A stretch of DNA of 64,000 bases, from assembly GCA_033220425.1 (NCBI GenBank), contig CM065649.1, forward strand, positions 3,162,001-3,226,000. The letters are read 5' to 3'. Below, in pieces: positions 35,089-61,215 of the stretch (its first letter is position 1; every line of letters starts with the position of its first letter). This DNA is from Lepraria neglecta. Lineage: Eukaryota; Ascomycota; Lecanoromycetes; Lecanorales; Stereocaulaceae. The translations under genes were made by a program, and so were the position numbers. Below the pieces are notes generated by a model. That model made no database searches. It was not told where the DNA came from and saw only the letters and a program-made list of their open reading frames with translations.

Positions 35089-37373
35089 TCAGAGAGCTCT
35101 GCTGGTCAGTGTATCTGGATGCTCGTCCCCTAGCACGCGTTTCCTCGTCTCCACCACCTGTAACTCCAGCTCCTCCGCCTCGGTATATCGTCCTTGTTTC
35201 CGGTATATCGACGCAAGGTTAGCTCTGCTGGTCAGTTTATATGGATGCTCGTCCCCTAGCACGCGTTTCCTCGTCTCCACAACCTGTAACTCCAGCTCCT
35301 CCGCCTCGGTATATCGTCCTTGTTTCCGGTATATCGACGCAAGGCTAGCTCTGCTGGTCAGTGTATCTGGATGCTCGTCCCCTAGCACGCGTTTCCTCGT
35401 CTCCACCACCTGTAACTCCAGCTCCTCCGCCTCGGTATATCGTCCTTGTTCCCGATATGTCCACGCAAGGTCAGCTCTGCTGCTCAGTGTATCTGGATGC
35501 TCGTCCCCTAGCACGCGTTGCCTCGTCTCCACCACCTGTAACTCCAGCTCCTCCGCCTCGGTATATCGTCCTTGTCTCCGGTATGTCGATGCAAGGTCAG
35601 CTCTGCTGCTCAGTGTATCTGGATGCTCGTCCCCTAGCACTCGTTGCCTCATCTCTACCACCTGTAACTTCAGCTCCTCCGCCTCGGTATATCGTCCTTG
35701 TTCCCGATATGTCCACGCAAGGTCATCTCTGCTGGTCAGTGTATCTGGATGCTCGTCCCCTAGCACTCGTTGCCTCGTCTCCACCACCCGTAACTCTAGC
35801 TCCTCCGCCTCGGTATGTCGTCCTTGTTTCCGGTATATCGACGCAAGGTTAGCTCTGCTGGTCAGTGTATCTGGATGCTCGTCCCCTAGCACTCGTTGCC
35901 TCGTCTCCACCACCCGTTGCCTCGTCTCCACCACCCGTAACTCTAGCTCCTCCGCCTCGGTATATCGTCCTTGTTCCCGATATGTCCACGCAAGGCTAGC
36001 TCTACTCCTCAGCGTTTTTGAGTGCTCCAACCCCTGCGTCTTCCGTCTAGACGCGCATGTTCGTCGGAATAGCTTTTCCGACTGAGAATAGAGTCCTTCG
36101 CGATACAAAATTTTTCCTAGAAGATCCAAGGCATCAAGCATATTATTGCTATCGTTGCCATCCACATTTTGGGCGATCCTCACCAACCTTCGAAAAGTTT
36201 CTTCCGCAGACTTGTACCTTCCTTGATCCATCATCAGCTCACCCAAGGGTTTCAGCACGTGCCGATAATTACAGTGGTCAGTTCCATAGAGTGTTTCGTT
36301 CTCAGAAAGTATTTGTCTTAGATGCGCTTCGTCTGCCTCTCTATATCGGTGCTCGACTGGGCCGAGACCCGTGTACCCAGTTGGATCGGTTTGATAAATA
36401 GGAGCGGGGCTCTGTCCCATAAAAGAGCTGGATGCAGGCTCAAGAATGCTGGAGATTGAAGAGGTAGGAGAGAATGGTTGAGGAGTCTGTGGGATGCTTA
36501 CAGCGCCTCTCACGGAAAATTCTCGGGTTCTCATCGAACCTGCAGGACTTGGAGCCGAGTTCTCTGTCCAACAATAAACCGCGGACGGGGTGTCTAGGCT
36601 ATGTTAGATGGTCGGCTTATCAAGGTCATGTCTAGTACTTGCTTACCTGCAGCAGGGCTCGGATGATACAAACTGCTCTCCAGAACATTGTTCCTCTTCA
36701 TCCATCCGTCGACTTTCTTTGGCTCCACGAAACTTCCTCTGATCTCAAAGTGAAGCGGCTTTTTATCAGTTTCAACCAACTTTCTGGTCTGTCGCTTTCT
36801 GACGATTGCTTTCATCTCTTGCGGCTTAATATTTTTGTCCCGACCCCATTGGCTTACACGCGTTCGGTATTGCCGTACCCTTATGGAAACAACAGTCAGT
36901 ATGAGAATACTTAAAAGCCTTGCCTTGACTCCTCATCCCGGAGAGACATACTCTGCTACGAATCCGAATTCCCTTTCCATAGTATCTTTTACCTCTTTCA
37001 GTGAAAGCGGCGGATTCTGCGTGATATGGAGCTCGATGATTCGAGCTTTGTACGGCTCCCACTCAACAGCGCGCAATGTCGGCGCTTTCCTTTTTCGCGT
37101 TTTAGTAGGTGGGCCCATGGAAGGTGCGAGTACATGGTGATGATCGCTAGAAGGTGAAGCGTTTGATGGCGGACAGGTGTAAGGCACGGGCAATATGTCT
37201 ATAGAATCCGATATGTAGTGGTCGGTGGGGGCAAGGTATCCTAATGGACCGAGCGACCCTAAGGCATAGCCCTCGAAATCAGGGTTGTTGCCATAGAGCT
37301 CCAGGGCTTGATTTGGCGTGGCTGAAGAACCCTGCGCAACGAAGGCAGACATGTCGGGGTAGACATGATCCAT
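35089..37373 (-). CDS. Clr5-domain protein with kinesin-light-chain-type TPR repeats
   Basis: Three exons (37373-36952, 36879-36647, 36593-35089) with introns of 72 and 53 nt give 719 residues. After an N-terminal disordered part with a basic KTRKRKAP stretch comes the Clr5 domain (about 118-170): WEPYKARIIELHI, then across intron 1 YRTRVSQWGRDKNIKP. Clr5 domains are thought to bind DNA or chromatin. From about residue 280 TPR units follow. The last seven are 42-residue copies (AEELELQVVETRKRVLGDEH, then PDTLTSRA) that are nearly identical at the DNA level. The protein ends within a repeat, so the copy number may differ between strains. Such arrays in fungi are often found in NLR-like or accessory proteins. 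Confidence 0.85.
35095..36000. repeat. 126-bp tandem repeat array encoding TPR units
   Basis: Seven copies with a 126-bp period (42 codons) lie in the 3' half of the Clr5-TPR gene; unit boundaries fall near 35095, 35221, 35347, 35473, 35599, 35725 and 35851. The last unit in this coordinate order also carries a 21-bp internal duplication, encoding VVETRQR twice. Units differ by few substitutions, which points to recent expansion or gene conversion. Confidence 0.85.
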
Positions 37374-56447: not shown

Positions 56448-57331
56448 TCATCCATGCTCCATTGTAACCAAGAATCCATGAGCATCAAGAGCCCTATGGT
56501 CCTCAGCCCAATCTTTCAATTCCTCAAAATCTCGACACTGCCGCGGGAACCCGGCACCCAGAAAACCATTCACAGTATCCACAGCCGGCTCAATGCTTGA
56601 GTCTGCCGAGCACAGAATTCCTTGCCTCAGATAATCGAAACAGTGTGCTACATGTGGCTTTCTTTCCTTGCCAAGGTCGAACTCCTCTAAAGTTCCCTCG
56701 CTTGTTGTTGAATAAAGGGCTCTGCGGACTGTGTACTGTTCCTGATCAGTGATATCTAGGTTCGAAATGTCTTGCGAGGCTTACTAGGCAGTGCAGCTGA
56801 TGGAAAGCGCTGAGGACGGAGGTGTTGATTGCTGTATTCGTGTCTTTCACATAGCCTAGGCCGTCTGCGGCAGCCTTTCAGATATTGCAGGCCAGTATCT
56901 CTAGTATCTGAGACTTACTGGGTATCATAGAGTCCCAGACTGGTTCTGATCCCCCGGCTTTAGGTGGTGGAGCGGCAAAGCTGCTGTTGTACTGGAATAT
57001 CTGCCTAGAAGTCCCAATGGGAACTATCTCAGAAAGGTAAGTAAGTGATAATGTGAGTTGGTTGGGCGGACGCTTTACCTTGAATGACTGTGCCTGCGAG
57101 ACGACCAACTTCACACTGGCCATGACTCTTGAGTGTACCGAGAAGGTATCCGGCCACACCAGCAAGAGTAACGAATATGGCAGAGAGCACTGAGTAAAAA
57201 TATCGAGACCTTTTGGAGCTACTTGGGTAGTGTATAACACCTTTCTCACAGGACTCCTCAACAGGACTGTCCTGATCTAGTCGACTGTATGGTGGTGATC
57301 CAAGGTATCGTTCAAAGATGTCAAAAATCAT
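56448..57331 (-). CDS. UstYa-family (DUF3328) oxidase-like protein, RiPP cluster
   Basis: Four exons (57331-57079, 57023-56919, 56864-56785, 56741-56448) with introns of 55, 54 and 43 nt close in frame to 243 residues. A cytosolic tail is followed by one membrane helix (about 46-67, type II anchor). The ectodomain has the two hallmark motifs: HQLHC at 141-145, and HC at 179-180 within AHCFDYLRQGILCSAD. A YLSEI-like acceptor region was resolved to TTCCC by frame. UstYa-type proteins form side-chain cross-links or macrocycles in fungal RiPPs such as ustiloxins, and related members act in cyclochlorotine biosynthesis. This gene is head-to-head with the precursor gene at 58360, about 1 kb away. 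It appears intact. The assigned chemistry is inferred from family and neighbour. Confidence 0.88.
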
Positions 57332-58359
57332 AGTGAAATGTTGCCAGAAACTGCTGCGATCTTAGGGAGCAAGTAGGTGAGACTTGGCTAACGTTAACAA
57401 ACAAAACTAAAAACATTCATTGAAACAATATCAACACTACTTACAAGATCTCATCAGTCGATCGGGCTGTTCCTAGCTTGCGTGTGTGTAAGTCGGCAGC
57501 TCAATGCCATTTGCCTCTTGCCCGAATCGATGGAAGCAGCGGCTTCCCATGACATCGAATACCCAGTCAGAAATCGCTTATCGCAAGTGACGCAATCCTG
57601 AAAATCCCATAATACCTGCCAATACTAATTCGGTCAGCCTCACATGTTTGGTTCTAAAATAAATCCTGCGGCATGACACATGCATGCATAGCCCCGACAC
57701 CTTCCTTGAAAAAGGGATTGGAGACACTTGTCAAAATATACTCCATCCTCCAGATCAGTTGGTCATGTACCTTCCTTTTCGAAGGACAGATTCTAGATCG
57801 AGCAATCGCTCCCTCTATTCTGCCATGTAACGTAAGCTAACTTTAATGCATGCAAGCATGGGTGCATCCTTCAACAGCGCCTGTAGTAAGAACAATTGAT
57901 CAGTTGCCGGCATACCATCCTGACATTATGTGTTTCACGCCGCGGAATTCAACCATTGTGGATTTCCTCCGTCTTTGTGATCGGCAGATTGCCTTTCTCA
58001 ATCAATAAACGGACCTTCAACCTTCCTATATGACGTAAAGCCTCATAGCAGCATTCCTTTCTCACCACACGATCAACCCCCATGATCGATGTTTGTTGAT
58101 CCCGAGCACGGATCTTGCTGCTGCTCCCTTTCATTATGCACCGCATCGGCAGCCTTGATGACGTGCAGGTTGCCTCGAACATATGATAAGGTTTTAATAG
58201 CGTGTACCACCCACTACCATATAGTATGTGAAACAAACATACTCTTTCCTTAGAATCTCTCCTCTACAATTACACTGCTCTCTAATCTGGATTCGGCAAA
58301 GACCTCTACCTCGCAAGAATTTGTACTGTGCATTAAAAACACTCGAAACCATACCTACC
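57332..58359. promoter_or_regulatory. Divergent promoter region of UstYa-like and precursor genes
   Basis: About 1 kb separating the two start codons that face away from each other. No coding frame supported. A shared regulator site is likely for a co-expressed pair, but I could not identify one. Confidence 0.4.
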
Positions 58360-58649
58360 ATGCAATTTCTCAAATCATCCCTTTTGCTCCTTGCCGGCTC
58401 CGCCGTGCTGGCTGCTGCAGCACCATCCCCTTGTAAGCTTTCATCTGCCCTCAATGTTGGACTGCTACTTATGGGAAATGCGTAGTGCGGTCTCATATTG
58501 ACCCAAATCTCCGTCGAGATGATGATAGAGTGGATGTAGCTGATGGTTTCAAGCGGAATGTTGAGACAGGGGACGGAGTCGACGTCGCGGATGGTTTCAA
58601 GCGTGATGTGGATACGGGTGCTGGCGTTGACGTCGCTGATGGTTTCTGA
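58360..58649 (+). CDS. Repeat-containing secreted RiPP precursor (KexRiPP/dikaritin type)
   Basis: Two exons (58360-58432, 58486-58649) with a 53-nt intron (GTAAGC/CGTAG) give 78 residues. A signal peptide (about 1-21, LLLLAGSAVLAAAA) precedes a short leader with RR at 34-35. Then VDVADGF occurs at 40-46, 56-62 and 72-78, an exact 16-residue spacing. The first two copies are followed by KR (47-48, 63-64), Kex2-type cleavage sites. The third ends at the stop codon. Spacers are acidic (NVETGDG, DVDTGAG). This layout is that of UstA-, PhomA- or AprA-like precursors, whose cores are released and cyclised. Each core has a single aromatic residue, Phe, at its end. Product unknown. The leader-repeat design and the flanking UstYa genes make the call strong. 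Confidence 0.9.
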
Positions 58650-59139
58650 GCTGTGGAAAATATGATGAAACTCTTTGTATCAATATCCTATCATTCGTAT
58701 TGAATCTTGGTTAGCCTCTTAAGGGTAAAGCAACAATTGTCAAACTTGACAATTGAAATATCTCAAGTGGAAGCCACATAAAAAACATCCAAATGACCTT
58801 GAAAGAAAACTAGTTACAAGTCTTCAACTTCTGTGTATTCTTCTATGTTTTTGGAGAATCCCCCATGCATGTCCACGTCGCGTTGCGGATCATCAAGGGT
58901 CGAAATTGATCCTGGCAACCCGGTTTTTATCCTGAGTCCGTATTGTGGACATGCTGTCACAGTCTGTTCAGTCACTATGGTCCAAGTGAGGTTAGCGAGG
59001 CGAAATAATGATGTTCCCGCTCATCTTAGATCATGTCTAGAGTTCGTTTGAGATGCTTCCTCAACGTCTAGTACATAAAGATATTGTAATCGAGACACCA
59101 AACATTCCACGTATCTCCTACTACTTAAACTGGATCCTC
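58650..59139. other. Convergent spacer between precursor and second UstYa-like gene
   Basis: About 490 bp; no gene supported. Confidence 0.5.
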
Positions 59140-60010
59140 CTATACACTATAACCCGAGCCCTCAGGACAAAATTTGTACTTCTCAATATTCCGCATCCCT
59201 TCCACAGGCCGATCTGGACGCTTGTAACACGCCGTATGCGCCTTCGCCCATTTCTCAAGCCTGGCCCAATCCCGGCATTGCGGGTACTGGCCAACGCCAG
59301 AGATACCACCCATCTCACGTTGGACTGCACGCGGGGTATCATCTGCGTCACAATGCACTTGCCTTCTGAGTGCGTCGAAGCAGTGAGAGATGTGGCCCCA
59401 TTTTCTGCTTTGTTTTTCGCCAAGTCGATACTCTTTGCATGGAGATGTAGATGATTTTCTGTTCATGGTCATATTATTCGACGTTCGTGAAGCTAGAGGG
59501 AAAAATACCAGACAGTGGAGGTTATGGTAGCCGTGTACGATGTATATGCCTTTCGTCGCGTCCCAGGGGAAGCGTTAGGCTGGAGGAGACTCTTAGAGGC
59601 TACGTAGTCGTCAGACAGGGCTATGACGCTACTGTCGATGTCGATGTCGTGCCATAAGCTTGCTGTGAGAGAAGCGTTCTGGTTATCGCTGTATGGTGTC
59701 TCCTCGTAATACGGCTGAGTGAGATGTCGAGATAGGGAAGCTACAAATATTTGAAGGCTGTCAGATATGGAGTAATCTTTATCCTGGGCCAATAGACTGA
59801 CCATATCCAGAGACCTCGTGAGATTTCCGTTGCTGCCGCGCCAGTAACCAGAGGAGGGTACAATTGAGACATGTTGACAAAAGCAAAAGAAGAGCACCCA
59901 CTCACTCCCAACACTCTGATAGGCAAACGAGGATAGGCTGACTCTTTTGCTTCAACATGCAGAGCAGGTACCATGTTTTGATCATCTTGTAAAAGTCTCT
60001 CTTTCTCCAT
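59140..60010 (-). pseudogene. Second UstYa-family (DUF3328) gene, frameshifted
   Basis: Segments on the minus strand run in order. An N-terminal part starts near 60010 (EKERLLQDDQNMV). A central part has SLWHDIDIDSSVIALSDDY. Then FPWDATKGIYIVHGYHNLHC, the first signature motif, lies in a second frame. After an intron at about 59473-59517, WGHISHCFDALRRQV has the second HC motif and the gene ends CPEGSGYSV at 59140. Frame is lost just before FPWD (one base missing near 59570) and again just before EYRLGEKQ (one base extra near 59455). Both hallmark motifs survive, so this was a genuine UstYa-like gene. It lies tail-to-tail with the precursor gene. Sequence error is possible but would have to occur twice. 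Confidence 0.75.
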
Positions 60011-61215
60011 AGCATGGGACAATTGCAAATATTTGAGGGAAGAACTAAGTAAGTGACGCAGGCAGACAGGAAGACATTGCCTAAGTGCAAATTTCTATCT
60101 TCAGAAGGTCTGCTGGCTGTGCGAACCGCTAAGGTGCCGGGTTTCGGTCCAATTGGGCTCGGCTCTGTCTACCTTAGGTACCATCGTAAAGAAGGGACAC
60201 TACCTCTCCGTCGGCAATTGATATTTTTGGTATGCATACGACGCTAGACTCAGCCTTTCATGTGAAAAGAACAACTACGGGAACGGAGGCTTCCGTCCCT
60301 CCCTTGCATCCGTCCTTTGACATTGCATCGGCGCGCTGAATCAGAGCCGCGCCAATAGATGTGACAGAACGAAACCTGTCAGAGACAATAGAGATCAAGT
60401 GCAAGGAATCGATTGGCGTGCAAGTCCGCCAGGTGGAGCACCTCTAATTATGGTCCTTCTAAATTGCAAAGATGCCTGTCCCCCTGCGTCAATATGGTGT
60501 TGCAAACCTGTCAGTCCTTACGTCAATAGATACGAGAATTGAAATCCGTGGACGTTGTCGTCCACGTCTATGCCATCTAGCATATGCACGTCACAGCCAC
60601 ATGGATGATGCGGTCCGACAAGCGGTCAAATCGCAGAATATCAATTGGCTGGATAATCAGCGTGCGTGACTGCATAAGATCTGCCACATGGCCAAAGTGC
60701 GAGTCAACTTCAGGATCCACCCTATCATGACTGGGGGACAGAACGTGTCCACCCAATATGGATATTATTTTTCATTGGTCCGATCTTGATAGCGCCTACA
60801 GTGATGAGGCGTGGCTTTTTGCCTAGAGCGGACTTTGGTTTCAAAGCCATGCAATTGCAACCTCCTCCTGATCATCCTTCGACGATCCTTCGACAATCCT
60901 TCGACGATCCTTCGACAATCCTTCGATGATCCTTCGACAATCCTTCGACGATCCTTCGACAATCCTTCGACGATCCTTTCAATCAATACCATTTGTTTCT
61001 CAAAGAGGGGCTTGCTATAAATGTCAAGTATATACAGCCCTGTTACGTAACAGTCAAATAGCCCACAACAGTTGTTGCTGCAAAGAACGACTTAAATTCG
61101 CCTCGTCCTCGAGTGCTTCGATTCCTCAATTGTCTTCGCCATCGATGTCATATTCATTCTTCTACTTGCTCATACCACTTTTCATTACCAACCAAACACA
61201 TTTGAACGAACTAAC
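60011..61215. other. Intergenic with an 11-bp tandem repeat
   Basis: No confident gene. Contains the repeat array at 60874-60977 and the promoter of the SAT4-type gene. Confidence 0.5.
60874..60977. repeat. Minisatellite, 11-bp unit
   Basis: About nine tandem copies of ATCCTTCGAC followed by G or A alternate nearly perfectly, so the effective period is 22 bp. A single change (GATG) marks one unit. Confidence 0.9.

Follow-up and report, generated by a model that had tools for sequence, protein, structure and literature searches.

A candidate Kex2-processed, UstYa-modified ribosomal peptide locus with a repeated, tyrosine-free core in Lepraria neglecta

A small repeat-bearing gene located between two genes of the UstYa family in the genome of Lepraria neglecta, a lichen-forming fungus of the Stereocaulaceae, raises the question of whether it encodes the precursor of a ribosomal, enzymatically modified peptide and, if so, what the modification might be. 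We examined this gene in a window of 64,000 nucleotides on contig C4 (5,201,525 bp), and scanned the whole genome (42.0 Mb, 11 contigs). The precursor gene sits ~1.0 kb from one UstYa-family neighbor (UstYa-1) and 0.5 kb from the other (UstYa-2), and both flanking genes match PF11807 as individual pieces, UstYa-1 doing so also in the spliced form. An eIF2-alpha-like gene marks the left boundary of the locus, and a fungal-rhodopsin-domain protein and a carboxylesterase, neither of which we assign to it, are encoded to its right. The preliminary description of this DNA had interpreted the arrangement as a dikaritin/KexRiPP-type cluster, a reading that is supported by a conserved precursor family and by one intact flanking UstYa gene: the locus probably encodes a Kex2-processed, UstYa-modified ribosomal peptide of L. 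neglecta.

The precursor gene (58360–58649, plus strand), derived from open reading frames, their splicing and a comparison with relatives, consists of two exons (58360–58432 and 58486–58649) and encodes 78 amino acids. Its predicted 53-nt GT-AG intron (58433–58485, plus strand) was chosen from the possible splice sites because the relatives P0002 and P0003 start like exon 2; four other GT-AG choices, all of which likewise produce a protein ending in VDVADGF, were set aside. The spliced protein has a hydrophobic N-terminus that originates from the ATG-started exon 1 and of which ~22 residues (58360–58425, plus strand) are signal-like by a hydrophobicity rule, not SignalP, in agreement with the signal peptide proposed earlier. 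Three exact VDVADGF repeats follow, located on the plus strand by degenerate DNA patterns and codon comparison: cores 1 (58530–58550) and 2 (58578–58598) are each followed by KR, core 3 (58626–58646) lies directly before the stop codon and forms the end of the protein, and RR precedes the first repeat unit. As in dikaritins and KexRiPPs, a predicted signal peptide is combined with repeated cores that have dibasic, putative Kex2 sites between them. Tandem Repeats Finder (TRF) reports a 48-bp array of 2.5 copies (score 133) in the precursor. Splicing, TRF and the PF11807 matches thus bear out the three identical cores with KR spacers between two UstYa-family genes.

Across the 42-Mb genome, degenerate DNA patterns for the core produced two plus one matches, all at the precursor, and a control pattern of the core read backwards produced none. 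The core codons display 4, 3 and 2 base differences in the three pairwise comparisons, all of them synonymous, so the cores are no recent exact copies of one another; between the two aligned spacers, 9 bases and 3 residues are different. Together with the TRF array, these results set the repeat apart from a chance occurrence.

A search for homologous precursors, which the preliminary description had proposed, covered 5.77 billion proteins (2,549 candidates) and returned 11 relatives at E ≤ 1. The best has an E-value of 2.9e-35 and nine are below 1e-7; the two weak relatives (5.5e-3 and 2.9e-2) both end in the same core. The relatives include proteins of Fulgogasparrea decipioides and Squamulea squamosa, both lichens of the Teloschistaceae, and no relative was found in the searches of viral contigs and genome contigs. 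Judging from these matches, the VDVADGF repeat is not unique to L. neglecta and is present in other lichen fungi. The earlier statement that the core is not recognized from a described compound stands in that the strings VDVADGF, DVADGF, VADGFKR, DIADGF and ADGFKRD were not found in the main texts of the literature searched, and has to be amended in that the repeat itself also occurs in other fungi.

The 12 precursors, including that of the window and the weak matches, contain 37 core units, counted under the rule that a unit must have F, Y or W as its last residue; some of these precursors are close to one another (for example, P0009 and P0011). At the last core position, 34 of the 37 units have F and the other 3 have Y, the aromatic nature of this position being partly a product of the counting rule, and the residue four positions before this end is V in 31 units and I in the other 6. 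The entropy over the 37 units is 0.36–0.89 bits at positions −8 to −1 versus 2.04–2.79 bits at positions −14 to −9. Every non-terminal core is followed by KR or a near form, and the protein ends with the aromatic residue of a core in 10 of the 12 precursors, P0004 and P0006 being the two in which it does not. At the level of these sequences, the peptide core is kept and the spacer is variable. Tyr seems to be acceptable at the aromatic end, since the first units of P0008, P0009 and P0011 end in Y and not in F (MDVASGY, MDVAPGY).

UstYa-1 (DUF3328, PF11807; 56448–57331, minus strand) is intact. As established by reading frame analysis, Pfam, relatives and BLAST, it encodes 241 amino acids in four exons, with introns at 57024–57078, 56865–56918 and 56736–56784 (minus strand) that were modeled against relatives. 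An earlier 243-residue model was discarded because its 3′ splice site is unsupported by relatives (P0013); this earlier version was used in the relative search and in the comparison with PF11807 (6.4e-21 for the spliced protein). UstYa-1 has one membrane helix, as judged by eye, and carries both HxxHC motifs (HQLHC and HVAHC), so that a DUF3328/UstYa gene with two such motifs, as is typical of dikaritin/KexRiPP loci, is found ~1.0 kb from the precursor. The best match is a protein of Stereocaulon virgatum (77% across the full length); two comparisons agree on the value of 77% for UstYa-1 against P0012, and the queries P0012, P0013 and P0030 of one of them may have carried alignment gaps, which BLAST drops. 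The 70 relatives at E ≤ 1e-10 (2,011 candidates) belong to other lichen fungi, Aspergillus, Penicillium and Xylaria, among others. In an alignment of 30 of these 70 relatives, hand-picked as near full length, each HxxHC motif keeps its two histidines and its cysteine without exception, and the UstYa-1 profile had no match among solved structures at E ≤ 1.

The public L. neglecta model of this gene, P0019 (OEA41_008019, 178 amino acids), is identical to long parts of the UstYa-1 reading frames in the window and is devoid of the exon that holds the first HxxHC motif. Annotation-based surveys that require two motifs could therefore miss UstYa-1.

The second UstYa gene, half noticed in the preliminary description, turned out to be broken, so that only one of the two genes named there is intact. 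UstYa-2 (PF11807; ~59140–60010, minus strand, its N-terminal limit being uncertain and adopted from that description) was delineated by Pfam, reading frames and relatives as a C-terminal piece that carries HNLHC and HISHC motifs and matches PF11807 with an E-value of 2.7e-16. Near position 59583 of this assembly, the reading frame shifts and a stop follows, which breaks the gene. The Lepraria finkii protein P0086 follows one frame of UstYa-2 up to ~59583 (93% identical) and another frame beyond it (71%); the break leaves no space for an intron, and a stop occurs soon after in the second frame. There are 45 relatives of the C-terminal piece among 56 candidates, and 7 of the 11 relatives inspected (P0083–P0087, P0096 and P0101) read through the break region. 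Immediately to the right of UstYa-2, at 60874–60978, there is an 11/22-bp tandem repeat (ATCCTTCGACG).

Relatives of the precursor and of UstYa-1 are found on contigs of equal size in 2 of the 11 precursor records: 4,677,656 bp (P0002 and P0025) and 3,768 bp (P0004 and P0073). We take equal size to signify a shared contig, in which case the smaller one would place the two genes within 3.8 kb of each other. In the other nine records, no contig is in common with the UstYa-1 relatives listed, the comparison being based on the longest contig per record and on lists filtered by E-value and length. By the same longest-contig comparison, none of the 11 records has a contig in common with the UstYa-2 relatives listed. 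The UstYa-1 relative P0058 and the UstYa-2 relative P0088 have an equal contig size (39,828).

How does this locus relate to known systems? Dikaritins such as ustiloxin and phomopsin are described as combining a signal peptide with repeated cores that bear Kex2 sites, and as having DUF3328/UstYa genes nearby (PMC7329392), all of which have counterparts here. However, the cores of ustiloxin and phomopsin contain a Tyr that is cross-linked to Ile, whereas VDVADGF is free of Tyr, and their pathways need a tyrosinase (PMC7329392), whereas all 16 tyrosinase (PF00264) matches in the genome lie outside the window, the nearer C4 match at a distance of ~1.5 Mb. The earlier claim that this trio of genes defines ustiloxin- and phomopsin-type pathways is correct in that the three parts are present, but "defines" is too strong, since both pathways need a tyrosinase and have Tyr-containing cores. 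Victorin of Cochliobolus victoriae has a multi-core precursor (PMC9233826), and the cores described here end in an aromatic residue too; the terminal Phe is a feature shared with victorin, which, according to this review, is said to be cyclized between the side chain of its C-terminal Phe and an internal residue. This likeness would be an analogy of logic and not a sign of membership, as a Phe-ending core alone is insufficient. Asperipin-2a perhaps resembles our locus, given its broken UstYa-2, in having a single DUF3328 gene (PMC7329392, PMC12048977), but both linkages of asperipin-2a are made via Tyr side chains (PMC9233826).

The lichen RiPP clans R1 and R2, described in a 2025 lichen survey of 111 genomes whose main text contains neither Lepraria nor Stereocaul- (PMC12048977), are likewise Lecanoromycete loci with DUF3328 genes that carry two HxxHC motifs. 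Unlike the locus described here, in which the precursor repeat is plain, neither clan has a repeated core according to the authors of the survey, which makes the VDVADGF locus and the ten other candidates described below useful. The catalogues of Kex2-processed repeat proteins, or KEPs (PMC7329392, PMC6339444), cover the general class to which our precursor is similar, and their main texts mention neither ADGF nor lichen; 22% of KEP genes are near DUF3328 genes (PMC7329392). The kind of pathway is already known, and the core family was not found in the main texts of the literature searched.

We propose the following pathway, for which the secretion, Kex2 cutting, trimming and UstYa step of alpha-factor and ustiloxin maturation (PMC7329392, PMC9233826) serve as the model. 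The precursor would enter the ER and Golgi, Kex2 would cut it after KR and after the RR ahead of the first unit, and a carboxypeptidase would trim KR to give peptides ending in VDVADGF. UstYa-1 would then oxidize or cross-link these core peptides as a copper oxidase akin to CctR, a copper- and oxygen-dependent DUF3328 enzyme with two coppers at its HxxHC(x)nHxxHC motifs (PMC12435403). That the product is a processed and UstYa-modified peptide is, in our estimate, likely. The Tyr-based linkage of ustiloxin is inapplicable to most units because the core has no Tyr. As the core is Tyr-free and every counted unit ends in an aromatic residue, the C-terminal Phe would be expected as one cross-link partner, by analogy with the cyclization reported for victorin. 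As its counterpart, the V or I four places before it would be the likeliest choice, and a cross-link between Phe and this beta-branched residue is put forward tentatively. The product may be cyclized, as the preliminary description had supposed, or UstYa-1 may hydroxylate the peptide and form no ring, as CctR does. Among the repeats of KEPs near DUF3328 genes, 65.6% contain Tyr (PMC7329392), which counts against a Tyr-free core such as VDVADGF. The absence of Tyr also means that the core offers a direct mass-spectrometry test of UstYa chemistry at a C-terminal Phe. A broader proposal, which we consider speculative and rather unlikely, is that VDVADGF represents a conserved peptide backbone of lichen fungi common to Stereocaulaceae and Teloschistaceae, with a UstYa copper oxidase linking its C-terminal Phe, replaced by Tyr in a few units, to the V or I four places before it. 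If true, the conservation of the core over two orders would fit a signal of the lichen lifestyle better than a species-specific toxin.

The absence of Tyr would also fit a reading in which the precursor gives rise to unmodified linear secreted peptides, similar to a pheromone or a signal, and the UstYa genes serve another product. A signal-like N-terminus, dibasic repeats and the trimming logic are shared with alpha-type pheromone precursors, and nine of the 11 precursor relatives have no contig in common with the UstYa-1 relatives listed. Yet UstYa genes are found ~1.0 and 0.5 kb from the precursor in a 42-Mb genome that has about 22 UstYa places by our grouping, and annotated mating factors, with three exceptions, are described as having no DUF3328 neighbors (PMC7329392); we regard linear peptides as quite improbable. 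An uncut secreted repeat protein of, for instance, the wall or surface would be compatible with the fact that Kex2 processing is a prediction, but not readily with KR or a near form after each non-terminal core of the 37 units and with spacers that vary where cores do not, which makes it very improbable.

The state of UstYa-2 bears on a different alternative, in which the cluster is decaying in L. neglecta, its product is partial or absent, and the relatives keep the pathway whole. UstYa-2 shifts frame and runs into a stop in a region that is open in L. finkii P0086 and in other relatives, which points in this direction. Nevertheless, the changes among the cores are only synonymous, UstYa-1 is intact, asperipin-2a manages with one DUF3328 gene (PMC7329392, PMC12048977), and the break in UstYa-2 may be an assembly error. 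Decay is improbable in our assessment, and it is compatible with the KexRiPP reading for the ancestor of the locus.

The KexRiPP reading raises the question of how many UstYa genes of L. neglecta are accompanied by a repeat precursor. The 42 UstYa matches in the 42-Mb genome were grouped by hand into about 22 places, and 20 of the 21 places other than the window's (all except C4:4501488) were scanned for repeats that lie close to dibasic sites and behind a signal-like N-terminus. A candidate precursor was found in 10 of these 20 stretches when at least two copies were required (L014, L015, L016, L017, L019, L020, L024, L025, L029 and L030) and in 6 when at least three were required; L019, L024, L025 and L029 have two exact copies only. 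Example repeats are IAYPDSY-KR (L020) and DADEADGNYQG-KR (L016). The repeat scan found no precursor in the remaining 10 stretches and, whichever of the two copy thresholds was applied, none in 60 Markov-resampled stretches. Applied to the 64-kb window, the rest of which constitutes a small natural control, it returned the VDVADGF precursor and one spurious place (53979) with at least two copies, and the precursor only with at least three.

At L018 (G000:C1:6124834-6129131), in which the repeat scan found no precursor, two UstYa matches and one tyrosinase match are located within 4.3 kb, as in ustiloxin-like clusters. The letters ADG are common to the repeats of three precursors, namely FEADGML (L015), DEADGNYQG (L016) and VDVADGF in the window. 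Elsewhere in the window, a gene for a TPR-repeat protein (35092–36603, minus strand) contains a 126-bp tandem array of 6.5 copies with 93% matches.
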